In this document: in pieces, positions 12,883 to 63,912 of the stretch
How positions within the stretch are numbered: the stretch's first letter is position 1
Layout: each line of letters starts with the position of its first letter
Translations under genes and position numbers: made by a program
The notes under the pieces: model-generated
The model's input: the letters and a program-made list of their open reading frames with translations, nothing else
Database searches by the model: none
What the model was told of the DNA's origin: nothing
DNA from: a bacterium
GTDB lineage: Bacteria; Cyanobacteriota; Vampirovibrionia; Obscuribacterales; Obscuribacteraceae
Length of the DNA stretch: 64,000 bases
NCBI GenBank assembly: GCA_016124935.1
Contig: WGMS01000005.1
Span: forward strand, 1 to 64,000
Reading direction: 5' to 3'

Positions 12883-13539
12883 TCAGGGCTGGGGATTATT
12901 CTGGTCATATGGACGGCCCGGCACGATTAGCTTGTCGGCGTCATTCGTGACAGGAAACTCCAGATGATGAATCAAGAAGCCGTAACGCAGCATCTCCACA
13001 CCGGCTCTTATCGGATGCCAGCCTTTTTCTATTACTCTCCAGCAAGCCAGATAGAAACTGGTACGGTCGCAACCGGCGTTGCAATGGACGAACACTGCCC
13101 CCTTTTCTCCAGCTTGATGAGCCTTTTCCATCTCTTTCACCCTTTTGATAAACCGGGCGACTTTGGCCGGATGTGGTGGCGCGTTTCCGCTGGGCAGACT
13201 GATATACTCCATACCGAGGGTGGTGGCAACATGTTTCTCCAGGGCGATTCCTAGAGGGTCACAACGCAGATCCACAATCGTGTTGATGCCATTATCATGT
13301 AAAGCCTGGATGCCGTTCGGCGTAGGCATGCCACCACGATAGAGATAGTCGTTGACCTTGTGAAAGTTGCGAAGCTCCTTGTTCATATTGGCCGATTTGA
13401 CCGGAGCCGTGTTCATAGCAGGCAGTTCGGCATCTCTTATAGCGCAGGAAGTCGTGCTGGTAACAGCCAGAACAGCGATAGATAGAAAGGCGAAAAACCT
13501 CTCTTTACCGACTCTTCCATATCTTCCCTTCAAAGCCAC
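12883..13539 (-). CDS. Dual-specificity/tyrosine phosphatase-like lipoprotein
   Basis: The catalytic loop VHCNAGCDRTSFYLACWRV contains the HC(x5)R signature of cysteine phosphatases, and VDLRCDPLGIALEKHV resembles the region ahead of it in DSP-type enzymes. The N-terminus has a signal segment ending in STTSC, a probable lipobox, so the enzyme would face the periplasm or surface. I place the start at a GTG at 13539, with AAGGA six bases upstream. That leaves 19 bp after the glycosyltransferase stop; the longer frame to 13602 would overlap that gene by 44 bp. Probable two-gene operon with the ArnT-like enzyme. The substrate could be a phosphorylated lipid, sugar or protein. Confidence 0.85.
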   Translation of the reverse strand: MALKGRYGRVGKERFFAFLSIAVLAVTSTTSCAIRDAELPAMNTAPVKSANMNKELRNFHKVNDYLYRGGMPTPNGIQALHDNGINTIVDLRCDPLGIALEKHVATTLGMEYISLPSGNAPPHPAKVARFIKRVKEMEKAHQAGEKGAVFVHCNAGCDRTSFYLACWRVIEKGWHPIRAGVEMLRYGFLIHHLEFPVTNDADKLIVPGRPYDQNNPQP

Positions 13540-13558
13540 TTCAATTCCTTCAATCCCT

Positions 13559-15427
13559 TTAATCCCGGCTCCTCTTTTCGATTCGGGCTCTTCCCGCAGC
13601 ATAAGGCACAGTCAGGGGTCCCATACTCGTGTCTCCATCCATCAAACTCTGAAATACCTCTGGCATCCGGAATACATCTTCCAGAATCATAACCTTTTCC
13701 ACCTCGAATCCGCTAATTCGATACAGACCCCACTGCCCGGCTTTCTCCACCGGCTCGAGAACCAGACCCGGTACCTCTGAAAGCTTAGACAGGTCACGAT
13801 CCCGCACGATTATAGAGCGGCTTATGCCATCGCCTGCCTGTAGCGGTTTGATTTGCTTGGTCAGAAAAAAAGTGTTCACCGGACCCCGGGCGTAGTATAT
13901 AGCCGAAGGCATAAAGACCCCGAACATATGAACCTGGTCGGAAATTTGTCCAGCCCTGGACGACACTTTCATCAAATCGCCCTCTTGACGAGTATAGAAG
14001 AGATGAAACCCGGTATTGGCTATTATCGAAAGGGCAAGAACCATGGTGGCAAAAGCGACCGAGACCGACTTTACGAAGTCTCCCTGCCTGAACAGCCGAA
14101 ACTGTATCAATGAACCGGCACAAAATACCGCAAGCCCTGTTACAGCCAGGGATTTAATCAAAATACTCCAGGAGCTGAAATAAAACAGAGCAAATACCAG
14201 CGCGGCGGCGGCGACCAGACCATAGACCAGAACCGAAACACAGAAAGTCTTGCGCCAGAAAGCCAAAGCGCCTTCTTCATCGCTTTTCGAATCCTCGATA
14301 GACTGACAGAGACGATTGATGAAAAGACCGACAAAAACTGCTATCGGAGCCATCACTGGAAGAATATAGGTAATCAGCTTGGTTCCGGAAAAGCTGAAGA
14401 AGGAAAAGGTGACGGCGGCGAAGGCAAAAAGAAAAGCCAGACCCCGCATCAGAGGGTCCTCTCTCAAACGCCTGGCAGAAAGACTGAGTGCGTCTTTGAA
14501 AGCCGGAAAAAGCAGCAGAACAAACGGAAAGAATCCGGTCGCCAGGACCGGAATAAAAAACCAGACGCTCATTTTGCCCATATTAGTATGGCCGGCATAG
14601 CGTGCCACGTTTTCGTATAGGAAGAAAACCTTCAAAAAGAGCCCCTCGGTTTGCATCCAGACCGCAGCATGCCAGGGCAGAATCACCGAAAGAAAAAGCG
14701 CGATACCGGGCAGGAGCTTCAGTCGACTCAACCATCCGCCAAGCTCCCTGATGCCGGGCCGGGTCAAGGTCAGAAAGAAAGCCACCGCCATCAGATAAAG
14801 AGCCACGGCAGCCGGTCCTTTTGTGAGCACCGCCAGACCCAGACCGATATAAACAAGGGTCCAGGAAAAGCGATTTTCTTTAGCAAGACAGAAACCGGTG
14901 GAAAGTACCGCCAGGGCTAAAAATGCCGAAAAGGCTATATCTATGGGCGATTCCCGGGCAATCAACAACAACAGCGGGGAAGCCGCCAGGGATAGACCGG
15001 CAAAGAGACCGGCTCTTACACTCTTGAGCCTGGAGACGAACAGATAGACCCCCAGGACCATGGCGCTGACAATCAAGGCAAAAGGCAACCTGGCTGCCGC
15101 TTCGGAGACACCAAAGAGCTTATATGAAGCCGCCGTAAGCCAGAAAGTCATAATCGGCTTTGAAAAGTAGATTTGATAGTTGAGATAGGGGGTAATGTAA
15201 TTACCCAACTCGACCATCTCCCGGCCGGCTTCGACATAGTAAGCCTCTGCCGGATTGACCGCCGGAAAACTCCCCAGACCCGGGAAATAAAGCAGCGCGC
15301 AAGCCAAAATCAGAAGACCGGCGGCAAAAGACGGGCTCATGCGATGCTCATCTGTGCAGAGACGATTCGGCTCCAGCTCAGGACCGCTTATCTCTGGCAG
15401 GCTCTCCCTGGTGGTCGGGGTTCTCAT
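13559..15427 (-). CDS. ArnT/PMT-like lipid-linked glycosyltransferase, integral membrane
   Basis: 622 residues with about 11-12 predicted membrane helices and a short C-terminal domain. The first periplasmic loop has the family pattern around NPAEAYYVEAGREMVELGNY followed by FSKPIMTFWLTA, corresponding to the conserved acidic loop of GT-C enzymes such as ArnT, which move a sugar from an undecaprenyl carrier to lipid A or protein. The exact acceptor is unknown. The ATG at 15427 has no clear Shine-Dalgarno. A second ATG at residue 30 would still precede the first helix. The downstream phosphatase lipoprotein is probably cotranscribed. Confidence 0.88.
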   Translation of the reverse strand: MRTPTTRESLPEISGPELEPNRLCTDEHRMSPSFAAGLLILACALLYFPGLGSFPAVNPAEAYYVEAGREMVELGNYITPYLNYQIYFSKPIMTFWLTAASYKLFGVSEAAARLPFALIVSAMVLGVYLFVSRLKSVRAGLFAGLSLAASPLLLLIARESPIDIAFSAFLALAVLSTGFCLAKENRFSWTLVYIGLGLAVLTKGPAAVALYLMAVAFFLTLTRPGIRELGGWLSRLKLLPGIALFLSVILPWHAAVWMQTEGLFLKVFFLYENVARYAGHTNMGKMSVWFFIPVLATGFFPFVLLLFPAFKDALSLSARRLREDPLMRGLAFLFAFAAVTFSFFSFSGTKLITYILPVMAPIAVFVGLFINRLCQSIEDSKSDEEGALAFWRKTFCVSVLVYGLVAAAALVFALFYFSSWSILIKSLAVTGLAVFCAGSLIQFRLFRQGDFVKSVSVAFATMVLALSIIANTGFHLFYTRQEGDLMKVSSRAGQISDQVHMFGVFMPSAIYYARGPVNTFFLTKQIKPLQAGDGISRSIIVRDRDLSKLSEVPGLVLEPVEKAGQWGLYRISGFEVEKVMILEDVFRMPEVFQSLMDGDTSMGPLTVPYAAGRARIEKRSRD

Positions 15428-35649: not shown

Positions 35650-37056
35650 CTAAGCCAAGTTCGAGAGCCTCCGCCCGACCTCCTCCGCCGACGATATTCT
35701 ATCTGAAGGAGCGATAGCCATGAGCTCCTGCACAAGAGTATCGAACTCCTCGGAGACCTGGGCATTGAGGCTGCGAGGGCTGTTGACCGAAAGGGGCTCC
35801 GGCTCCTTTGCGGTGAGCATAAAGTGAATTACTGCCCCCAAAGAATAGAGATCGCTCTCCAGACAAGCCCTACCGGAGAACTGCTCCGGGGCGATATAAG
35901 AAGGCTTGCCCACAAGAGTCCCGGTCACCGTCCCGACAAACTCATTGGCGGCACCGAAATCTACCAGAACTAAAGAACCGCGCATATCGAGCACCAGATT
36001 CTCCGGGGTCAGATCGCGGTGAATAATGGGCGGGGTGCGGCTGTGCAGATAAGCGACGATCTCGACGATCTCGCGAGCCCAAATAAGCGCCTGACGTTCC
36101 GAAACAGCGCCGCGATCCCGGACATAATTTCGCAATGTGGAACCGTTTATACGCTCTAGAAGCATGTATTGCCTGGAATTCTCGACAAAATAATCTATCA
36201 CCCGGGCGATTCTTTGATGCTCCAGCCCGGAGAGCAAAACAGCCTCTCGCTCGAAGTGCTCCCGGGCTTTCTCCTTCAAGCTTTCATTGGCGGAAGGCGG
36301 TACCACCGCCTCTTTCAAAATAGCCGGGGTCTTGCCTTTCCATTCGCACAGATAAATTGCCGACCAGCCTCCTGCTGTGAGGAGCTGGATTATTTTGATG
36401 CGACCGTCTTGCAGCCGGGTCCCTGGCTCCAGAGGCTGAAATGGGGTGGTGGAGATGCGACGCTCGGCTTCCTCCATCCATATACCGGTAAAGCTGGTCT
36501 GCTCCGCTTCCACCCTTCCTCTGACCACCTTCTCGACCATATTGTCGAAGCTCTTGTCGCGACTCGCCTTTTCTGCCCACAGATCACAGGCAGAGATCAG
36601 CTTGTCTAGATCTTCCAGACCCAGAGCCGAAGTCTTTATGGCTATGGTCTCGCCTCCTTTGCCGAGCCTGAATACTATTTTTTCGTCGCTCTTTCCCAGG
36701 GGCTCGACAGAGATACGCTCCACTTGCCCCCAGCTCAGCCCCCTGGCACCATCGGCGATATCGCCCTGCTTGCGAGGCAAGACCAATCCCTCTTCATTGA
36801 AGATAAGGCGAGAATCCCTGGCTTTCGTATATGCGAACAAACAGCGAAACAACCAGAAAGCCGAGGCGATAGAGAGCAAGACGAAAAGAATCTCCATCGG
36901 TGAAATAACCGATTTTGCCATGACCAGGGGATAGACCACCGGCAAGGGAAAAACCACCATGAAGAGAGCGATCGACCAGACAGCCAGCGAGCGATTTTTC
37001 TCGGCAGTATCGCTCTTATATGTAACGACGGCGGTCTTTGCCGAAAGCCTGGTCAA
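35650..37056 (-). CDS. Membrane-anchored Ser/Thr protein kinase
   Basis: 468 residues: two N-terminal membrane helices (about 25-48 and 54-76), a PH-like region and a C-terminal eukaryotic-type kinase domain (about 215-468). The catalytic elements are complete: ATP-binding Lys in AILKEA (K248), HRDLTPEN (D348), DFG (366-368) and APEQF. The start is a TTG at 37056, supported by AGGAGG five bases upstream. It is the last gene of a three-gene operon, 15 bp after the larger kinase gene. Partner proteins are probably the TPR/zinc-ribbon protein and the other kinase. Confidence 0.9.
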   Translation of the reverse strand: MTRLSAKTAVVTYKSDTAEKNRSLAVWSIALFMVVFPLPVVYPLVMAKSVISPMEILFVLLSIASAFWLFRCLFAYTKARDSRLIFNEEGLVLPRKQGDIADGARGLSWGQVERISVEPLGKSDEKIVFRLGKGGETIAIKTSALGLEDLDKLISACDLWAEKASRDKSFDNMVEKVVRGRVEAEQTSFTGIWMEEAERRISTTPFQPLEPGTRLQDGRIKIIQLLTAGGWSAIYLCEWKGKTPAILKEAVVPPSANESLKEKAREHFEREAVLLSGLEHQRIARVIDYFVENSRQYMLLERINGSTLRNYVRDRGAVSERQALIWAREIVEIVAYLHSRTPPIIHRDLTPENLVLDMRGSLVLVDFGAANEFVGTVTGTLVGKPSYIAPEQFSGRACLESDLYSLGAVIHFMLTAKEPEPLSVNSPRSLNAQVSEEFDTLVQELMAIAPSDRISSAEEVGRRLSNLA

Positions 37057-37071: not shown

Positions 37072-39300
37072 TCAGGCAATTTTTGGAGTTTTCTCAACTT
37101 CAGAAAGATCGAGGGGGCAGCCCTCGTCCTCTTCAATCCATGTCAAAACAATATCCGCCCCCGACGGTCGTTTGGAAGCTTCGAAATGACTGCAAGCTTC
37201 GATAATCGCTTTTAAGTCTTCGGGCATATCGGCTTCGCCATCTCGCTCTCTATCGCCCTCCAGGGGCGCCGGATCGCTTCCAATAAGCAGAAAGTGCAGG
37301 ATAGCACCAAAGGCATAGATATCGCTCTCTTTTACCGGTCTGCCTCGAAACTGCTCCGGCGGCGTATAGGCAGGACGAGCCGCCACTACCTGCGGTGCAA
37401 TGCGTCCATCACCATCGACTCTTGCCACATCGAAATCTATCAGTTTGACATCGCCTTCCTCGGTGAGGATGAGGTTATCCGGAGCCAGATCACAATGAAT
37501 TATCGGTGTCGGTAGATTATGAAGATAAGAGAGGATCTCGAGTATCTGTCGAGCGATATGGCGAACTCTCTTCGATGGTAGAGGACCTTCTTCAGCGACA
37601 ACCTGACGTAGAGTCTTGCCGGGAATATATTCCATTACCAGATAGGCTCTCGTATCTTCGATGAAATGTTCACGATGACAGACGATGTTCGAATGCTTGA
37701 TAGAAGAAAGCAACTGGCTGGCATGCTCGAAGCGAATTCTGGCGTTTTGCAAGATACGCACATCGGCATTGCCCGGCAAAACAAGCTCTTTCACCACCAC
37801 GGATTCGTTTTCTTCCAGCGAGCTGGCGATATAAGTGGTGCCCTGACCGCCATAACCGAGCACCGATTCGATCTGATAGCGACCGCGTCCTACACGACGT
37901 CGCTCGAATTTAGAGCTCTCCGATTGACCGGAGCCAAAGTCCCTCTCATCCACAATCAAAGCATCCTTTCCTGCCTGGGCAAGCCAAAGATCGGTAAAGT
38001 TGAGGTCGGCAGATACGGTGGTGGCTCTCAGGAATTCGTCGTTAAAATTAGCCTCGCCGGCATAGCGTTCTATTAACCGGAGCACCTTCATTCTCACAGC
38101 CACCTGGGGAATTCTATCGAGACGTAAAATCAATACTCTGTCGGCTCCATGAATTCGAAGATAGCCGTCCATCGGGTCGGAATAGGCTCTATCGGCTAAA
38201 AGCTCGACAAATTGAACCTGTTCGAAAGGCATAAAATACATGCCCTGACCGATGCTTTTCGCGTCGACAAAAAGAAAGTTCGGAGTCATCCTTCTAATGA
38301 TAGGAAGAAAGACGAAAGCAACCATTGCGCTCATTGACCAAACAATAATCAGTTGATAGAGCACCTTCCCTGAGCAGAAGAAACTGGCAGCACCCCGATA
38401 TAATACAAGCCAGAGCAGGCTGAGATTTTGATACCAATGCTTCGAACCTATGTCCTGAACAAGCCGCTCCACCACTTTGTTCTCGACTTCGGGATTATCT
38501 GCCCAGTAAAGATCGCCTTCTTTGAAAGCTTCAGGATATGCCGCTTTGGCCTGGGCAAAAGTCTGTCTGGCGATATCCTCGCGCAGCTCCGATTCGGTGA
38601 GCGACTTGCCGCAGGTCAAGGTCAAGACGGTGAAAACGAGCACAACCACCATCCAGCCTGCCAGATAAATTGAAAAGAAGGTCTTCTTCTGCTGATTGAC
38701 AAGATGGAAGAAGCTGTCTTCAACGGGACTCTTGATCTGCCTTGCGATGACGCTATTGCTGTCGCTCGATTCATAAATGAATTTGATCAGCCCCCGGGAT
38801 TCCAGAGGCAGGACATCTCCGTAACTGAAGATACAATCGGGTCGGAGATTCTTGAGACTATTGAGAAAGTCCCGCAAGGTCCTTTCGTCATAGTCATCTA
38901 AATAAAGAGTCTCTTCGACACCGTTGTCAAAACGAAGCACTATCCCTTCTCGATAATCGTTCAGGACAGAGCCCGCCTCTCCACCGACTTCGACCAGTGT
39001 GCCAAGCAGCCTTTTCTCTGCCGAGAACGGTCCCAGATAAATAGCGTCATCACCGAGCACCACTTTATTGAGGAACTGCCCACCAAGAACGGCAAGATAA
39101 ACAGGGGGCAGAAAACAGACCCAGACCGCCGACTGAATAACACTGGTCATGTCCGCCATGAAATTGCTCATATAGGCACCACCGGTTACAGCGATTTGCA
39201 AAAGCAATAAAAGCGGATAGAAGAAAAACACCGGCGAAAGAAAGAGCAGCATCTGGATAGACCTGGATACCGACTTCTTTCGCAGAACCAGCTTTTTCAT
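37072..39300 (-). CDS. Large membrane Ser/Thr protein kinase with altered HRD and DFG motifs
   Basis: 742 residues. Four hydrophobic segments (about 17-38, 52-72, 208-230 and 312-335) frame soluble domains, and the kinase domain lies at about 475-742. The glycine loop (LGYGGQGTTY), the ATP Lys (VVVKEL, K504) and the catalytic Asp (D604) are kept, but HRD reads HCD (HCDLAPDN) and DFG reads DFD (LIDFDVAR, 622-624). It may be active with altered regulation or be a pseudokinase. ATG at 39300, 3 bp after the TPR gene stop and 15 bp before the second kinase, so translation is tightly coupled. Confidence 0.88.
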   Translation of the reverse strand: MKKLVLRKKSVSRSIQMLLFLSPVFFFYPLLLLLQIAVTGGAYMSNFMADMTSVIQSAVWVCFLPPVYLAVLGGQFLNKVVLGDDAIYLGPFSAEKRLLGTLVEVGGEAGSVLNDYREGIVLRFDNGVEETLYLDDYDERTLRDFLNSLKNLRPDCIFSYGDVLPLESRGLIKFIYESSDSNSVIARQIKSPVEDSFFHLVNQQKKTFFSIYLAGWMVVVLVFTVLTLTCGKSLTESELREDIARQTFAQAKAAYPEAFKEGDLYWADNPEVENKVVERLVQDIGSKHWYQNLSLLWLVLYRGAASFFCSGKVLYQLIIVWSMSAMVAFVFLPIIRRMTPNFLFVDAKSIGQGMYFMPFEQVQFVELLADRAYSDPMDGYLRIHGADRVLILRLDRIPQVAVRMKVLRLIERYAGEANFNDEFLRATTVSADLNFTDLWLAQAGKDALIVDERDFGSGQSESSKFERRRVGRGRYQIESVLGYGGQGTTYIASSLEENESVVVKELVLPGNADVRILQNARIRFEHASQLLSSIKHSNIVCHREHFIEDTRAYLVMEYIPGKTLRQVVAEEGPLPSKRVRHIARQILEILSYLHNLPTPIIHCDLAPDNLILTEEGDVKLIDFDVARVDGDGRIAPQVVAARPAYTPPEQFRGRPVKESDIYAFGAILHFLLIGSDPAPLEGDRERDGEADMPEDLKAIIEACSHFEASKRPSGADIVLTWIEEDEGCPLDLSEVEKTPKIA

Positions 39301-39303
39301 CGA

Positions 39304-40710
39304 TCAAATACCGGCAGTGGTATCGAATCCGCAAGAGGGGCAGATGTCTTTACCGCCCAGGGAAGCGCCGCAAATATCGCAGCTTTGCTCCAGAGCCTGG
39401 GTAAGGGACTGTACCTTGGTTACCTGCATGACTTTCCAGGAACCGGTTATGCGTCCCATGGTCTCGACATCCATATTGCCACCATTATCGGTATCCGGCT
39501 TTTTGGCTGTCTGGGAGAGCAGCTCGGCATAAGAGTTCATCAAACGCTTGGTCTCGGGATGCTCCGGACCGAAAACCTTATTCTTGATATCCAGGGCTCG
39601 CTTGTAGCCAGACTCGGCATGCTCGTACTTGCGCTGGACATGATAAAGGGTAGCCAGGTTATGAATAGCGCAGGCTACTTCCGGATGCATCTCGCCGAAG
39701 ACCTTTTCATAGACATCGGCACATTTACGAGCCAGAGGTTCGGCGTTTTCATAGTCGGAGAGCTGATAGTAAAAGTTTGCCAGTTGGCCGAAAGAGTGAG
39801 CGGTTACCGGATGATTGACTCCCAGAGACATCTCTTTTATCTTGTGAGCTTCTTGAAAGTACTCGATGGCATCTTTCACCATACCCATCTTCTGCTTCAC
39901 GCTGGAGACAGCCTCGTAGGCCCTGGACAGGATCTGTCCTCCGACTCCGAATTTCTTGAGGATGTTCAGGTTAATTTGATAAAGACAGTCGGCATAGGCG
40001 AAGCTGCCATTGGTCTCGGCATTCTGAGCGCTCTCCAGGTTGCTCTGATAAATCGCCTCGGCTTCCGGCTGGGTAACGGAGAGGAGCATGACCTGCTTGT
40101 TGGTACCGGTTCCAACCTGCCTCTCTACCGGCACGGACTCCTCTGCCGAAACCGGCAGCTTGAGGACATTGCTTCCGATCCAGTCTGCCAGGGTGACAAC
40201 CTTGGGATTAGCCCCCAGAGCTTTCGCCCCTGCCGCATCGCCCCGGGAAATGAGCAGGTCGGCATAGAGACTGCGAACCTTGGTCGAGCACATATGCTGC
40301 GAACCCAGCATCTTATCGGTCAGATCGAGGGCGGCTTTGTAATGTTTTTCTGCTTTATCTAAGTCACGAGAGACATGATAAATCATCGCCAGATCTATCG
40401 AAAAAGCAAGCAAATTGGCACGACTGAGAGAATGATTGTGTTTATAGAGACTGACGAGCTGTTCGCAAAAAATCCTGGCTTGCTCGAAATTGGCTATGTA
40501 CCAATAAAGTTCGGCAAGCTTCTCCAGGGTCAACAAATTGCGGGCGTCAGTCTCTTTGAAATCGCTGCACTCTTCTAATGCGGCAATAAGCGACGATTCG
40601 GCACTATCAAAGCGCTTTTCATCGAGCGCCTGAAGGGCAGAGTCTTTATAGATAACCCACTGCTTACTTGACTTACTCAACTGCTGCCCCCATGCCTCGG
40701 GCAAGCCCAA
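39304..40710 (-). CDS. TPR protein with C-terminal zinc ribbon, first gene of the kinase operon
   Basis: 468 residues, no signal peptide. TPRs run through about 15-165 and 210-400, the latter of kinesin-light-chain type (GVNHPVTAHSFGQLANFYYQ, then FGEMHPEVACAIHNLATLYH). The C-terminus has a zinc-ribbon motif, CDICGASLGGKDICPSCGFD. It probably scaffolds or recruits clients for the two kinases encoded directly downstream. The frame starts at a TTG at 40710 with a weak ribosome site, and a second TTG ten codons in is an alternative, so the exact start is open. Confidence 0.82.
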   Translation of the reverse strand: MGLPEAWGQQLSKSSKQWVIYKDSALQALDEKRFDSAESSLIAALEECSDFKETDARNLLTLEKLAELYWYIANFEQARIFCEQLVSLYKHNHSLSRANLLAFSIDLAMIYHVSRDLDKAEKHYKAALDLTDKMLGSQHMCSTKVRSLYADLLISRGDAAGAKALGANPKVVTLADWIGSNVLKLPVSAEESVPVERQVGTGTNKQVMLLSVTQPEAEAIYQSNLESAQNAETNGSFAYADCLYQINLNILKKFGVGGQILSRAYEAVSSVKQKMGMVKDAIEYFQEAHKIKEMSLGVNHPVTAHSFGQLANFYYQLSDYENAEPLARKCADVYEKVFGEMHPEVACAIHNLATLYHVQRKYEHAESGYKRALDIKNKVFGPEHPETKRLMNSYAELLSQTAKKPDTDNGGNMDVETMGRITGSWKVMQVTKVQSLTQALEQSCDICGASLGGKDICPSCGFDTTAGI

Positions 40711-40817
40711 TTCCCGCTAGAGACCGATAAGCCGACTGGCTTCTTCCATCTCATACCCAGATATGAGATAAAGTATTAGACCACTAAGTTATCAACATAA
40801 CAGCTCTTAATTAAATG

Positions 40818-40849
40818 AAAAGCCCCCGGATAATCTTCCGGGGGCTTTT
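40818..40849. terminator. Strong bidirectional hairpin terminator
   Basis: A perfect 13-bp stem (AAAAGCCCCCGGA / TCCGGGGGCTTTT) with a six-base loop at 40831-40836. The A and T runs allow Rho-independent termination in both directions. On the minus strand it ends the transcript of the giant-protein operon before the kinase operon. Confidence 0.92.
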
Positions 40850-40860
40850 CTATGTCGTAT

Positions 40861-40892: not shown

Positions 40893-41075
40893 TCAGCAAC
40901 CAGGCAGACTATTGTTTGCCGTATTGGGTTTGCTGTTCATGGCATCGAAATAATCCTTGTTGCTCGTACCGAGGTTGGATTCGGAAAAGAGCTTGCTGTT
41001 CGTTTTAAAGTTCTCGAACGCATCAGGATTTTCGGCCTTGTCTCCATTGGAGCCGGACTCGAAGCTGTTATTCAT
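40893..41075 (-). CDS. Small Asn/Ser-rich protein of 60 residues
   Basis: ATG at 41075 (MNNSFESGSNGDKAENPD...) ends NNSLPGC. The frame is open back to a TTG at 41144, but that region has no better start. It is hydrophilic, with no signal or membrane segment. It lies between the operon of the giant repeat protein and the strong terminator, so it is probably the last gene of that message. No homology is recognised, and coding status rests on the position and open frame. Confidence 0.4.
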   Translation of the reverse strand: MNNSFESGSNGDKAENPDAFENFKTNSKLFSESNLGTSNKDYFDAMNSKPNTANNSLPGC

Positions 41076-41233: not shown

Positions 41234-41722
41234 CTATTTATCTTCTGTCTTTTTCTTACCGGTGAACGCTTCGCGCAGAGCCCTTGCCATGTCGGTCTCC
41301 GGCGCGGAGCTCCAATCGATGCTCTCACCCAGTTCCCGCAGGCGATTGTTTTCGGCACCTTCAGCTTTTTCTTTGCCTTTGCCCTTACCTTTATTTGGAT
41401 CCCCCGCCCTGTCTCCAGTCTCCGGCTGCAGCGACTCTGCTTCGACTTTTTCCGGCGCAGGCTTAACCGCTTCGATAACGGGCTCCGTTTTTTCCACAAC
41501 CGGCTCGATTTTATCTACCGCTCTTTCTAAGACTTTCTCAACTGGTGGCCTGGCCTGGGTTCTTTTACTGGCCACGCCTCCCATCACCTTCTTCGCTACC
41601 GCGTCTGCCCTGGGGTTTACCTCTGCCGCCCCGGTCTCCGCCGCGATCACCACCGCGATCACCGCCACGGTTGAAACCGCCTTCCCTTCTTGGCGGGCGA
41701 AAACGACCGGAGATAAGGCCAT
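41234..41722 (-). CDS. Glu/Lys/Ala-rich protein overlapping the 3' end of the giant gene in another frame
   Basis: 162 residues. ATG at 41722 with GGAG seven bases upstream; the first 158 bp lie inside the giant gene, in the +1 frame relative to it. Residues 60-162 are outside the overlap and look truly coding: acidic and Lys-rich with EPVVEKTEPVIEAVKPAPEK, a Gly-Lys run and a final RLRELGESIDWSSAPETDMA segment. Three readings are possible: an overlapping gene, a +1 programmed frameshift extending the giant protein, or a sequencing indel in the RGG repeats. I cannot decide between them from the sequence. Confidence 0.55.
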   Translation of the reverse strand: MALSPVVFARQEGKAVSTVAVIAVVIAAETGAAEVNPRADAVAKKVMGGVASKRTQARPPVEKVLERAVDKIEPVVEKTEPVIEAVKPAPEKVEAESLQPETGDRAGDPNKGKGKGKEKAEGAENNRLRELGESIDWSSAPETDMARALREAFTGKKKTEDK

Positions 41723-44700
41723 CTACCAGCTCCAGCGCTCGACCATGTTTACCACCGGATGGTGATACCATCTGGTTGACCAGGGAGATAGCAAGCTCCT
41801 GATTGACCTGGACATCACCCTCGGTGACGTTCTTATTATAATTTCTGTCCTTCGGATTTCTGACACGGTGCAGATTATTGCCTTCATTTATGGTCTTCAT
41901 CAACATCGAGACATCACTTATGTTCTTAGCACCATCGGTGACTATATCTATCAACTCTCGATACTCCGGGGCAGAGCGCTCGGGATTGAGACGGAACATA
42001 ATCTGATCTAAGGCGGCAGGGTCTTCCCCGGCCAGGCGCTGAAGCTTGGCTACAAGCTCGGGCGATCCGGGGCCTTCTATAGAAAGCATCTTCTCCACCC
42101 GGTCGAAGCGACTTTGAAGAGTTTCTACCCGCGGCGGTCTAGCACCGGGACCGGAAAAACCGGCAAGCTCATTGAACTTATTGGGATCGCTCCGGCGAAC
42201 ACTCTCCATCTCTTTGACCAGTTCAGCATTGACTTCCGGCTTATACTGAACAGAGCCGTCCGGCTTGACCTGAACATTGCCCCGCAGCAGATCTTTGACC
42301 AGCCAATCGGGTAAAGCTTCGCGCAGAACCTGTCCAGGCTGAGCCCCTGAACCAAGACGACCTCTGGCCACTTCTAACTTCATGCCTATATGATCGCCTA
42401 GCCAGGCGGGCGCCTCTGCCGTATTTTGTGCTTCGGAAGCCCGCAACATATCGCGGAAAGACTTAACCGCCCCATCGCCGGTGACATCTCGCGCCACCGC
42501 ATCGACCAGCTCTGGTCTGTTCAGCACCTTGGCGCCGACAATGCCCATCCTGTCGAAATTAGTCAGATCACTGCCCTCGGCCTTTGCCTGACCATAGGCA
42601 AGCCAGTCTCTGAACTGCCTGGGCGTCATACCATCAATCAGATCCACCAGTTGATGCGCTTTAACAAGTTTGGTGTTACCGGTAGCGGCTTCGAACTCTG
42701 GAAACATTTTCTGGGCGCGATAACTGTTCGAGCGAGCCGCTCCTTCTGCACCGGGACCTATTTGAGCATAATCAAGCTCTACCGGTCTGATATCAGAGAA
42801 TCTAGAGAGTCCGTAGTCTGTCCGGAAATAGAAATCTATCGGTCCTGCCACCGAGCTGTATGCCGACTGCGAAGCGATTATCTCGAAAATATTCTTACCA
42901 TAGTTAGGACTGCTGGGATCGGTCTCTATGCTGTATCCGGTCTCTCTGGCACGTTGAGGCTGATTGGGGTCGGTTATCTCGCGACGATTCCGGGCGATAA
43001 AGTCGATAACCTGGGCTTTGAATGCCGCATATTCAGCCGGATTGGTCGGTACTTTAGATATAAGGTTCAAGAATGGCTCGATCACATCAGCATCATGACG
43101 AATGCCTTTTAGCTGGGCATCGCCGACATCACGTCGACCGCCGTTCTGGGAGAATAGATAGGCTTCTTTAAGCGTGGTGGCAGCCCGGGGATCGACTTCC
43201 GGACTGAGGCTTGCCAGTTTCTCCAGGGCGCGACCAAGGTGCACCCCTTCGCCCCTGGCGTAGTCCACCAGAGCGGCTGTAGCCTCTCTATTAAAGGGAG
43301 CAGCCTCGGATACGACACCACTTTCGCCTTCGGATACCCTCTTGCCCATGGCTGCATCAAGCAGTTCTACGCCTTTCATAAGAGTCGAACCCAGCCTGGA
43401 ATTGGGAGCGCTGGCATAGGCCATGACCACTGCATGTTCCATGTAGGGATCGTTATTGCGAACCGCCTCGCTGAGCAGATAATCGCCCACCGCCTGGCCG
43501 TCGCCTTCGGCATACTTAAGGAATCTATCTCTCAAACCTTGAGGAGCATCGGGATGGAAAGAGCTGCGGGCAAGAGCCTCTCCTTCTATGGTACGCGACT
43601 GAGTGTAATCGAAGCCGTAGGCTCTCTCGATCACTTTCACCATTCTGGGACTATCGACGGTATAGGCCCATTCTAATAAAGCCTTACCGACCGAAGCGCC
43701 ATCTCCGCGGGCATACTCACCGAAAGCTCTGGTATCGACTTCGGTGCCCTGCTTCTCGGCCCGGACCAGCATGTCCAGTCCGCGATCGAACTCGCCAAGC
43801 CGCTCGTTGAACTTGCCATACTCGAAACTCTGAGGGTCGAATTCATTGCGAGAATCTACCTGGCGACGCAGCCTGCTGGCCACTGCCTCTGTCGCGATGC
43901 GAGAGACAGCCTCGTTGCCTTCTCCTTCGACTTTGTACTCCTGACCATATTTCTCGCGAATCTGCACTATAGATTCGCCCATTCTCAAATCTTTACCCAG
44001 AGGCGAACTCTCGATCTGGCGATAGGTCTCTATGGCAAGGTTCTGAATTTCGGGCTTGCCCATTCTCTCGCCCATGGCTACCAGGTCGTGGCCGAACTCG
44101 ACACCACCGGTTCTCGCCCACTGCGTAAAAGCGTCCCGAACGGCCTGGGGAGAGGCAGGATCGGCAGCAGCTTTGGTAAGGGCTTCGCCCCTGAGCGCAT
44201 TGTTCACTTCCGGCGAAAGTTGATAAACCCGACTGACCAGATCTATCAAAGCCGGATCGTTTTTAATATGAGCTGCTTCTATAATAAATTTGGCTGCCGG
44301 AGCGTTGGAAGCATCCCCTGCAAAGTCCAGAAAACGTCCGGCAGATTCAGTGGTGCCTTCTTTGACGGCCTCTAGTGCGCGGGTGAAGCCTTCTTTCACC
44401 GAAGGCGCAATCTCCTGGGGTACGTCATAGACCTTAAAGGTCTCTCCTGCCCTGGCTCCGTCTTTACCAGCCAGAACAGTGTTCTCCAGACGTCTATCGG
44501 CGCCTTCTCCTTCGATAATCCGCCTTCCGGCGTCTCTGGCCCGCTCCACAAGCCCCTTACCGGAACCCGCATCGGTCTCAACCTTAGCTTCTAGCTTGCC
44601 TGGCGCAATGTCGGCAGGCTTTATTTCAATACCACCTTCCCGGACGGTGCTGCGCTGTGCCGCTTCCAGACCGGTTCTGGCAACCGCAGGAGCGATATCC

Positions 44701-45632
44701 GACCGTAGCGAAGCCAGAAGATCGGCGTCATTCTGACGCTTTACTCTGCCCTGTTCGGCCAATTGATGGAAAGTAGGCGCCGGTTCGGCCCCGATGAAAC
44801 TCTTCAGCTTAGCCACACCGGCATCTTTGAGACCGAGTCCCAGACCGACCACACCGAAGGTGTAAGCGTTCTTGCCATAGTCTTCCAGACCGGAATACTT
44901 GGAAAAATCTGCTCCTTTGAAAGCTACATCGTGGGAGAACGTATGAGCGAAGCCAGCCGGAGCGCCCGAAAGGGTGGTAGCAGTGATGTTGCTGCCCAAA
45001 AGCTTCTGCGCCCAGGGTTTTGCCAGGGAGCCCGCATAGGACTTGATCCCTATGGTAGAGGCGGTCAGGGTACCGAAAGTGGCAGCACCGACAGCGAAAT
45101 TCTTCGGTCGGGTCCAGATGCTATCCCCCTCTTCCGTGGGTATGAAGGTAAACTCGAAGGCACCGCCTGCAAGGGCTCCTTCGGCAATGGCGACTTTTGT
45201 AGGCGTGTTGAGAACTCGGCTCACCGCAAGCCCGGCTTCGGTGGGAGCCAGTTTGCTGCTCATCATCTTGACGCCTTTATGAGTCACCATGAACGGCGCG
45301 ATTATCCCGGCAGCACCTCCCAGTTGCTGGGCATGCCAGCGACCGGTGCCGAACTCGGCCGGAGCCGGAATATCCATCTTGCCGAGCACATCTTCCATGC
45401 CTACCAGCTGTAAAGCACCCCGACCGGCGCTATGGATAGAATAGGCTGCAGAGTAGAGCCCTTCTCCCACAAGGGTATCGGCGGGTTTGGCAATGCCGGG
45501 TAACGGAGCCTCATCCGGTTTGGTCAGTCTTACTAAAGATAGGTTATCGCTGGAAATGCCCAGGTCCATATCGACCTTGTTCAAATTGGAAGGCTGGTCT
45601 TTATCGGACTGGATTTCTGGTGTGTCTGCCAT
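41565..45632 (-). CDS. Giant helical-repeat protein with an RGG-type tail
   Basis: About 1,355 residues from the ATG at 45632 (MADTPEIQ); the frame extends to an ATG at 45671. An N-terminal 290-residue Gly/Ala-rich domain has hydrophobic stretches. Numbering from 45671, a repeat region (about 445-845) holds five divergent copies of a 65-85-residue unit starting like FGEYARGDGASVGKALLEWA, and pairs 1+2 and 3+4 are alike (EALTKAAADPASPQAVRD versus EALARSSFHPDAPQGLRD). The middle and C-terminal parts are alpha-rich, and the protein ends with GGDRGGDRGGDRGGRG, an RGG-box-like tail. No known family is recognised; it may be a lineage-specific scaffold or RNA-binding protein. Confidence 0.8.
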   Translation of the reverse strand: MADTPEIQSDKDQPSNLNKVDMDLGISSDNLSLVRLTKPDEAPLPGIAKPADTLVGEGLYSAAYSIHSAGRGALQLVGMEDVLGKMDIPAPAEFGTGRWHAQQLGGAAGIIAPFMVTHKGVKMMSSKLAPTEAGLAVSRVLNTPTKVAIAEGALAGGAFEFTFIPTEEGDSIWTRPKNFAVGAATFGTLTASTIGIKSYAGSLAKPWAQKLLGSNITATTLSGAPAGFAHTFSHDVAFKGADFSKYSGLEDYGKNAYTFGVVGLGLGLKDAGVAKLKSFIGAEPAPTFHQLAEQGRVKRQNDADLLASLRSDIAPAVARTGLEAAQRSTVREGGIEIKPADIAPGKLEAKVETDAGSGKGLVERARDAGRRIIEGEGADRRLENTVLAGKDGARAGETFKVYDVPQEIAPSVKEGFTRALEAVKEGTTESAGRFLDFAGDASNAPAAKFIIEAAHIKNDPALIDLVSRVYQLSPEVNNALRGEALTKAAADPASPQAVRDAFTQWARTGGVEFGHDLVAMGERMGKPEIQNLAIETYRQIESSPLGKDLRMGESIVQIREKYGQEYKVEGEGNEAVSRIATEAVASRLRRQVDSRNEFDPQSFEYGKFNERLGEFDRGLDMLVRAEKQGTEVDTRAFGEYARGDGASVGKALLEWAYTVDSPRMVKVIERAYGFDYTQSRTIEGEALARSSFHPDAPQGLRDRFLKYAEGDGQAVGDYLLSEAVRNNDPYMEHAVVMAYASAPNSRLGSTLMKGVELLDAAMGKRVSEGESGVVSEAAPFNREATAALVDYARGEGVHLGRALEKLASLSPEVDPRAATTLKEAYLFSQNGGRRDVGDAQLKGIRHDADVIEPFLNLISKVPTNPAEYAAFKAQVIDFIARNRREITDPNQPQRARETGYSIETDPSSPNYGKNIFEIIASQSAYSSVAGPIDFYFRTDYGLSRFSDIRPVELDYAQIGPGAEGAARSNSYRAQKMFPEFEAATGNTKLVKAHQLVDLIDGMTPRQFRDWLAYGQAKAEGSDLTNFDRMGIVGAKVLNRPELVDAVARDVTGDGAVKSFRDMLRASEAQNTAEAPAWLGDHIGMKLEVARGRLGSGAQPGQVLREALPDWLVKDLLRGNVQVKPDGSVQYKPEVNAELVKEMESVRRSDPNKFNELAGFSGPGARPPRVETLQSRFDRVEKMLSIEGPGSPELVAKLQRLAGEDPAALDQIMFRLNPERSAPEYRELIDIVTDGAKNISDVSMLMKTINEGNNLHRVRNPKDRNYNKNVTEGDVQVNQELAISLVNQMVSPSGGKHGRALELVDGLISGRFRPPRREGGFNRGGDRGGDRGGDRGGRGKPQGRRGSEEGDGRRGQ
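41645..41685 (-). repeat. Short Gly-Gly-Asp-Arg coding repeat
   Basis: Near the 3' end of the giant gene a short unit encoding GGDR is repeated about three times, in a form that could gain or lose units by slippage. The overlapping open frame begins just upstream and passes through the same bases. Confidence 0.7.
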
Positions 45633-45814
45633 AGAAACGAACTGAACTCTTATAAATAGCCGGGTACCCATGAGGTTACTTACTATTTATTCCGCAGACA
45701 ATGGTAAATCTCCCATGCCGATATTATTTATGCCGAAATCAAAATGGGCTTAGTCTAAGTGGGTATGATACAAATACCTCGAACAGAAGCAAGGAAAAGC
45801 CAACAGAAGCCCAG

Positions 45815-60270: not shown

Positions 60271-63200
60271 ATGGGCTGGATCAGAGACATCTTTGCGCCG
60301 AAGCAGCGTCAGTGGGAAGACATGTACAGGAACCGCTGGCAATATGACAAGATTGTTCGCAGCACCCATGGAGTCAACTGCACCGGCTCTTGTAGCTGGA
60401 ACGTCTATGTGAAGGGAGGAATAGTCACCTGGGAACTTCAAGCCCTCGATTATCCGACCATCAGCAAAGATATTCCACCCCACGAGCCCCGGGGATGCCA
60501 GCGCGGTATTTCCTGCTCCTGGTACCTCTACAGTCCGCTGAGAGTCAAGTATCCATATATAAGAGGGGCTCTGCTCGACCTGTGGCGCAAGAGCAAGACC
60601 GAATGCGGGGGAGATCCGGTAGAAGCCTGGTCAAAACTGGTAAATGATGAAGAATCACGAAAACGTTATCAGAAAGCCCGGGGGAAGGGCGGTTTTCGCC
60701 GCGCGTCCTGGGATGATGTAAACGAGATAATGTCGGCCGCCAATATCTACACGGCCAAAAGATATGGCTCAGACAGAGTGGCAGGATTCTCGCCTATCCC
60801 GGCAATGTCCATGGTCAGCTATGCTGCCGGGTCAAGATTCATGCAGCTCTTCGGCGGTCTGTCCATGTCCTTCTACGACTGGTATTGCGATCTACCACCG
60901 GCCTCACCCGAGATCTGGGGGGAGCAGACCGATGTGGCCGAAAGCGCCGATTGGTTCCATTCCAAATTTGTTGCCGTGGTAGGCTCCAATGTCCTCATGA
61001 CCAGAACCCCTGATGCACACTTCCTAGTAGAAGGCCGGCACAAAGGTTCCAAGGTTGTGGTATTTTCACCAGACTTTTCCATGACCTCCAAGATCGCAGA
61101 TGAATGGATTCCCATCCATCAAGGTCAGGATACAGCTTTCTGGATGGCTGTCGGTCACGTGATTCTAAAAGAGTTCTATGTCGACCGTCAGGTCGGATAT
61201 TTCACTGACTATGTGAAGCAATACAGTGATTGCCCCTTCCTGGTAAAACTCGAAAAGCAGGCGGACGGATCCTACCAGGCCGGACGATTTCTGCGTACCA
61301 GCGAAGTCGAAACGACAAAGGACATGGCTAACGCGGACTGGAAGATGTTTGTCCTGGACGCAAAAACAGGCGAGTTAAGAGTGCCGAAGGGGACAATCGG
61401 GCATCGCTGGCAGGAGAAGAAGGGTGAATGGAATCTCAAACTTGAAGATACCATATCCGGTGAGCCGATAGATCCGGCTCTGATGCTAGATCAGCATGGC
61501 GTAAAAGCGGATGGAGTAGTCAATCTCATTGTCAATGATTTCTCAGAAGGCACCAATGACAAAATCGCCAGAAGACAGGTCCCGGTTAAAAGAGTAAAAA
61601 CCGTCGACGGCGAAGTGCTTGTCACAACGACCTTCGAACTTCAATTGACCCAGTACGGTGTCGCCAGGGGACTCGAGGGAGACTATCCCAAAGACTACAA
61701 CGACGAGCTGGCGGTATACACTCCAGCCTGGCAGGAAAAATTCACAGGAGTTCAGGCTGATACCCTGATAAACTTCGCCCGGCAATGGGCCACCACTGCC
61801 GAGAAGTCCCGCGGAAAATGCAGCGTCATCATCGGCGCCGGCGTCAATCACTGGTACCATAACAACCTGATCTATAGATCCATCATCATGCCTCTTATAT
61901 TCTGCGGCTGCGTTGGTGTCAATGGCGGTGGTCTAAATCACTATGTCGGGCAAGAGAAGCTTGCCCCCCAGGCCTCATGGGCGCCAATCGCATTCGGCGG
62001 CGACTGGGGTGGTCCGCCCAGGCTGCAGAATACACCGTCATGGCATTACATGCACTCCGATCAATGGCGGTATGACCAGAATTTCGACGAGATGTGCCCT
62101 GTAAGCGATCACAGACACATTCTGGCCAGTGGTCATACTGCCGACAAACAGGCCCTCGCCGTAAGAGCCGGTTGGATGCCCTGTTATCCGCAGTTCAATG
62201 AAAGCAACTACGCCCTGGTAGAAGAAGCCCGCTCTAAAGGGGCTCAGTCGGACCAGGAAATCATCGACTATATCGTCGGTAGACTGAAAGATCGATCGCT
62301 CAAGTTCTCCATGGAAGACCCGGACAATCCTGAGAGTTTCCCCAGGGTCTGGTACATCTGGAGAGGCAATGCCATTTTAAGCTCCGCCAAAGGGCATGAA
62401 TACTTCCTCAAACATTACCTTGGCACCCACACCAATCTGATTGCAAAAGAGAAGGCTGAAGAGCTGGTTAAGGAAGTGACCTGGCATGACAAGATTCCCA
62501 CAGGCAAAATGGATCTCATTGTTGATCTCAATTTCAGGATGGACTCCTCGGCGCTCTACTCGGACATAGTGCTGCCAGCATCCACCCATTACGAGAAGCA
62601 CGATCTGAACAGTACCGATATGCACACGTTCATCCATCCGCTTCAGCCGGCTGTTCCGCCATGTTGGGAGTCGAAAACCGACTGGGAGATTTTCAAAGGA
62701 CTGGCCCGAGCTACCGCAAAAATGTCGGAGAACTACTTCGACGGACCAGTCCAGGATGTGGTCATAGCTCCTCTCCTTCACGACACCCCGGCCGAGATTG
62801 CGCAGCCCACTGTGAAAGACTGGGCGAAAGGCGAATGCGAAGCCATTCCCGGCAAGACAATGCCCTCTTTCAAGATAGTCGAAAGAGACTATCACAACCT
62901 GTTCAATAAATTTGTTTCACTGGGACCTAACTTCCGCAACAACGGACTCGGCATGCACGGCACCACATATGACGTCGCTGACATCTACGACGAGTATATG
63001 GAGAGCTACCCGACCCGGACCTGGGGCGGCAAAACCTATCCAAGCCTGTATGAGGCAAAAGATGCATGCAATGCCATTCTTCACTTCGCAGCAGAGACCA
63101 ACGGTGAGCTCGCATATCGAGCCTTCCAGGCCGAATCAAAGAAAACCGGAATCGATCATACGCACCTGGCAACGGATTCAAGATCGGTTCGCATGCACTT

Positions 63201-63912
63201 CGAAGATTTGTCAGTACAGCCGCGCCGCATTCTGACCACTCCATTCTGGACAGGAATAACCAATGATGGAAGGACATATTCTTCCTATTGCCAGAACAAA
63301 GAGGAACTCATCCCCTGGCGAACCCTGACTGGAAGACAGCAGACCTATCAGGATCATGAAGCTTATGTGGCCTATGGTGAGCATCTGCCTGCCTTCAAGC
63401 CCAGGGCAGAAGCCAGGGTTACCGGCGATCTGGAGCACACCGAAAGCGGCGAGGGGAGACTGGTGCTCAACTACCTTACCCCCCACGGCAAGTGGCATAT
63501 ACATTCGACTTTCGGCGATACTCTCAGGATGAAGACTCTCTCCCGAGGCACTGAACCTGTCTGGATCAACGATAAGGACGCAGACATGATAGGGGTGAAC
63601 GACAATGACTGGGTCGAGGTTCTCAACGATCACGGTGTGGTGTGCACCCGTGCCAATGTAAGCGCGAGAATCCCGCGCGGTCTGGTGATGATCTACCACT
63701 CCCCAGAGCGCACCGTAGGAGTGCCAAAATCCCGCACCCGTAAGATGCGCCGAGGCGGAGGTCATAACAGCCTTACCAGGGCCAGACTGAAACCCCTGTT
63801 CATGCTGGGCGGCTATGCTCATCATACCTATGCCTTCAACTACTGGGGTCCTCAAGGTGTGAACCGAGATACTTTCGTCGTGATCAAAAAGATGGACAAA
63901 CCGGTATGGTGA
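60271..63912 (+). CDS. narG: Respiratory nitrate reductase catalytic subunit NarG
   Basis: 1213 residues, close to the 1247 of E. coli. Ligands of the FS0 [4Fe-4S] cluster are in place: H33, C37, C41 ([12 protein letters not shown]) and C76 (EPRGCQRG), all shifted by 16 relative to E. coli H49, C53, C57 and C92. The Mo-ligand Asp is D207 in [10 protein letters not shown]. The protein has no Tat signal, so it faces the cytoplasm, where it reduces nitrate to nitrite using a Mo-bisMGD cofactor. It forms a complex with NarH, which starts 16 bp downstream. Upstream overlap with the cytochrome c gene is nil, with a gap of 4 bp. Confidence 0.98.

Follow-up and report, generated by a model that had tools for sequence, protein, structure and literature searches.

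A +1 frame overlapping the 3' end of a giant Obscuribacteraceae gene is probably the gene's own severed tail

Interrupted coding sequences and single-species frame-shifted genes (fs-genes, the GeneTack singletons) consist of two adjacent same-strand frames that jointly reproduce the layout of a homologue read in one frame, occur in one species and have their break near the 3' end (PMC1852416; PMC3711429). When 73 interrupted genes of M. smegmatis were resequenced, 28 turned out to be sequencing errors and 45 authentic (PMC1852416), and a survey of 1,106 genomes judged single-species frame breaks near the 3' end to be likelier indel mutations than errors (PMC3711429). In programmed +1 frameshifting of the prfB type, the zero frame ends early and the frame change is governed by a signal of the form AGGGGG-N3-CTTTGA at the start of the gene (PMC12421855).

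The locus considered here lies in the window, the whole 64,000-nucleotide stretch that was analysed, on a contig belonging to a 4.4-Mb genome of 43 contigs, a metagenome-assembled genome (MAG) in the family of Candidatus Obscuribacter (Obscuribacterales). It resembles interrupted coding sequences and fs-genes in all of the points listed above, but differs in that its putatively severed part is disordered, so that residue-by-residue homology to one protein is not demonstrable. With prfB it shares the +1 direction and a zero frame that ends early; it differs in having neither a CTTT slippery site nor a Shine-Dalgarno (SD) sequence at fixed spacing, in ending on TAA rather than TGA, in that the frame change is not conserved, and in that the change falls at the end of the gene. 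A further likeness is to an undescribed family of giant helical proteins of the Obscuribacterales (L039-L053), which have a C-terminal domain about 30% identical to that of the window's protein and an IRDPRP-like motif with a G/R-rich stretch behind it, but whose acidic/Lys tail is in the same frame, whereas that of the window is in the +1 frame. The features of the locus are as follows.

41565 to 45671, minus strand: giant gene of 1368 codons, encoding a predicted all-alpha protein that ends in a Gly/Arg-rich (RGG) tail
41568 to 41684, minus strand: Gly/Arg-rich tail of the giant frame, EGGFNRGGDRGGDRGGDRGGRGKPQGRRGSEEGDGRRGQ, which aligns with the G/R-rich stretch that homologues have after the IRDPRP motif
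41565 to 41612, minus strand: zone of likeliest frame change, the whole zone lying within ~3.6 nats; best point 41582, GAT GGG AGG
41234 to 41722, minus strand: second (+1) frame of 162 codons with an ATG start
41234 to 41564, minus strand: part of the second frame beyond the giant gene's stop, rich in Glu/Lys/Pro/Val and then GKGKGK, with the codon usage of coding DNA
40817 to 40850, minus strand: strong terminator-like hairpin of 14 pairs, following both frames and a 60-codon open reading frame (ORF)

The ORF coordinates confirmed that the 162-residue frame overlaps the giant gene by 158 bp, as a sequence-only reading of the locus had stated, and the ATG and GGAG that it had pointed to are indeed present, GGAG standing 7 nt upstream of ATG 41722. 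The same reading's impression that the part outside the overlap looks coding was borne out both by a codon model whose training set was the long genes of the window and by the openness of the frame. Past the giant gene's stop, the second frame (frame b) scored about +4 to +9.5 per 30 codons and the other frames were mostly negative, and in first-order Markov simulations 109 open codons at this point had a probability of ~0.015 for the given frame and 0.044 for any of the three. The tail part of the second frame showed no decay under the codon model, and the giant frame (frame a) beyond its own stop is full of stops. Within the overlap, 53 codons of the +1 frame are free of stops, and in most homologues this frame is likewise open for 46-115 codons ahead of the stop; this openness is a composition effect of G/R/P/E-rich sequence. 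Continuation of the +1 frame for more than 30 codons past the stop was seen in the window only, and in most homologues the frame closes soon after the stop.

By the codon model, frame a codes as far as approximately its stop and frame b codes from approximately there to 41237, so that each frame has its own coding signal and the one gives way to the other at a switch without an intergenic gap, as in interrupted coding sequences. Judged by codon usage, the likelihood of a +1 switch was nearly flat from 41591 to 41579; this interval follows the RGG units and immediately precedes the giant gene's stop, a position that fits one ancestral gene in which an RGG stretch is followed by an acidic tail. 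Counting against a severed end, the giant frame keeps its RGG-type character as far as its stop, the last codons being CGT GGC CAG TAA; in favour of one, the minus strand has no terminator-like site between this stop and that of the second frame. Between the second frame and the hairpin lies the 60-codon ORF, which is Asn/Ser-rich (MNNSFESGSNGDKAENPD..., 40893-41075, minus strand) and for which no relatives were found in 49 other genomes of the family. Further downstream of the giant gene, and tightly packed on the minus strand, are two Ser/Thr protein kinases (35650-37056 and 37072-39300) and a TPR_12 protein (39304-40710).

Relatives of the C-terminal part of the giant protein were found in many Obscuribacterales MAGs, and all of them have the IRDPRP-like motif (SGRFRPPRR in the window) and then the Gly/Arg-rich stretch. 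Among the 15 named homologues, which come from Candidatus Obscuribacter and other Obscuribacterales MAGs, 14 have a single frame that runs from the G/R-rich stretch into a disordered tail rich in E, K, P, V and D, and a different search, which led to an overlapping set of genomes, gave the same layout. The layout of the two window frames is thus present in one frame in these homologues, as for interrupted coding sequences, with the homology of the tail itself suggestive only. The sequence-only reading had proposed that, if the frames join, the giant protein would end in an acidic tail instead of the RGG tail; the acidic ending, with the acidic/Lys tail standing behind the RGG tail, agrees with the order of parts in the 14 relatives. 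Three proteins do end at the G/R stretch, namely the named relative L044, the more distant L038 and L032, a paralogue in the same genome that is 40% identical to the giant protein over residues 432-1349, and none of the three has a second frame or anything coding downstream of the stretch. Homologues of this kind had been named beforehand as evidence against a joined or hidden frame, and they exist, but as these three only. Both endings therefore occur in the giant-protein family, and an out-of-frame tail was seen only in the window.

The 113 residues past the switch (tail b) are similar in make-up to the homologue tails. Against the 14 homologue tails, tail b had a mean local score of 57.3, compared with 40.0 ± 2.8 for shuffled sequences, and none of 300 shuffles reached that value; however, of 34 disordered segments taken from unrelated proteins encoded in the window's genome, 2 scored as high, so the likeness is no proof of descent. 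No residue-level motif common to tail b and the homologue tails was found, and a possible match between the end of the tail and homologue L036 (ELGESIDW...REAF, E = 2.1) was dismissed as chance. Tail b is of low complexity, and its likeness to the homologue tails is suggestive, a likeness of kind from which common descent does not follow.

We put at roughly 80% the probability that what stands as a second frame is the giant gene's own 3' end, cut off and shifted by +1, because 14 of the 15 named relatives run on into the tail in one frame, because no free-standing relative of the 162-residue product was found in 39 other genomes (0 at E <= 0.001), and because its ATG and GGAG are unremarkable. 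Under the severed-end reading, the ancestral gene would have had one frame that read on from the RGG tail into a disordered, acidic/Lys-rich one, and we infer both that tail b is homologous to the tails of the relatives and that a small indel, amounting to the gain of one base or the loss of two, arose near the end of the RGG tail. After such an indel the giant frame would stop at 41565, with ~109 tail codons left out of frame. As the sequence now stands, the protein would end at its RGG tail, an ending natural in some relatives, and the severed tail would normally be left untranslated. A recent mutation or a sequence error, rather than a new mechanism, is the probable cause of the displaced tail.

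The first of these causes, a real and recent frameshift mutation that has left the protein ending in RGG and the tail as a fresh pseudogene fragment, is quite possible at somewhat under even odds. It agrees with the existence of RGG-ending forms in the two relatives and the paralogue named above, and with the observation that a singleton frameshift at the 3' end is more often an indel (PMC3711429), but it has to accommodate 109 codons that are still open and well biased; the frameshift, if real, must therefore be recent. The second cause is an assembly or sequencing error, with a true gene in a single frame and a giant protein of ~1,470 residues that carries the acidic tail, and this we hold as a tentative possibility. 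Retention of the single frame in relatives, the undecayed tail frame, the GC-rich region and the frequency of such errors among interrupted genes (PMC1852416) all speak for an error. The lack of a comparable break elsewhere in 429 kb speaks against it, as does the sequence of the switch zone, which contains no long homopolymer; the repeat unit in the RGG region is 12 nt, so that collapse of repeats would leave the reading frame unchanged.

No other same-strand overlap of coding cores longer than 60 nt was present in 429 kb of the genome (344 coding cores), and 262 of 300 simulated one-base insertions (87%) were detected as touching coding cores; since natural gene pairs also give touching cores, this test excludes a high error rate and not a single error. 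Between a real recent indel and an assembly error we lean slightly to the indel, because the sampled assembly has no comparable break, because the break is at the extreme 3' end and because the short form is viable in relatives. The window has one other notable overlap, of 44 bp at 13559-13602, which was considered as a second frameshift and rejected, its two proteins matching unrelated families: at 12883-15427 (minus strand), the genes for a DSP-type phosphatase and a PMT_2-type glycosyltransferase share these 44 bp, and both are real genes.

It is improbable that the second frame is an overlapping gene in its own right, with its start at ATG 41722, or that the tail is translated by stop-restart coupling from ATG 41584. 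The ATG with its GGAG and the coding signal beyond the overlap are what such a gene would offer, but SD-like 4-mers near that distance precede 22 of 314 (7%) of the +1-frame ATGs inside other window genes, and for this reason the GGAG is weak evidence; the ATG and the GGAG sit, moreover, within conserved giant-gene sequence and are ordinary there. The first ~45 codons of the frame are RGG codons read one base off, homologues without a downstream tail have similar open +1 frames, and the +1 frame is not continued in homologues as a conserved overlapping gene would be. At ATG 41584 the SD-like run is just 2 nt away. The suggestion of a hidden gene in the sequence-only reading accordingly finds no free-standing relative in the 39 other genomes searched and loses its first part to the giant gene. 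Least probable, and very unlikely, are programmed +1 frameshifting (or transcript slippage) yielding an RGG-ended and an acidic-tailed form and, at the same low level, a lineage-specific recoding at the RGG end that would yield both a giant protein with its basic RGG tail exposed and one whose RGG tail is followed by the acidic tail: the overlap does contain simple +1-type sites, CCC C at 41615-41612 and GGG at 41582-41580, and the family has proteins of both forms, but three-base runs are common, a frame change at this place was found in 0 of 14 tail-bearing and 0 of 3 tail-less homologues, the stop is preceded by CAG (CAG TAA) with no CTTT-like slippery site and no spaced SD before a TGA (PMC12421855), and RNA folding around the switch is not unusual (z = -1.38), so that the earlier proposal of a +1 frameshift product does not hold in the programmed sense.

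The main consequence is for annotation: automatic gene calling at this locus would produce a spurious 162-residue orphan gene and misplace the end of the giant protein. The locus also brings out the undescribed Obscuribacterales family itself, whose members are very large helical proteins and in which an acidic tail usually comes after a G/R-rich stretch, although tail-less forms occur naturally. Neither the giant protein nor the second-frame product had a match in Pfam or NCBIfam, and a PDB sequence profile search with the C-terminal domain of the giant protein returned no relative. AlphaFold2 gave an all-helical model of residues 300-1331 at low confidence (mean pLDDT 60, pTM 0.38); helical repeat proteins, which appeared as possible structural kin in a Foldseek search of the PDB, were discounted, the matches being weak (best E 0.05). 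A G/R-rich stretch suggests that the protein binds polyanions such as nucleic acid, a binding that an acidic tail behind the stretch could restrain. A literature search for work linking Obscuribacter with RGG proteins found none.

At its other end, within residues ~60-290 (window 44800-45500, minus strand), the giant protein has an N-terminal Gly-rich/hydrophobic module, GRWHAQQLGGAAG..., which is without a Pfam match and recurs across the family, with as many as a dozen or so proteins per genome carrying it. Elsewhere in the window, the plus strand at 60271-63912 encodes a NarG-like molybdopterin oxidoreductase of 1213 codons that weakly matches the N-terminal motif of nitrate reductase alpha.
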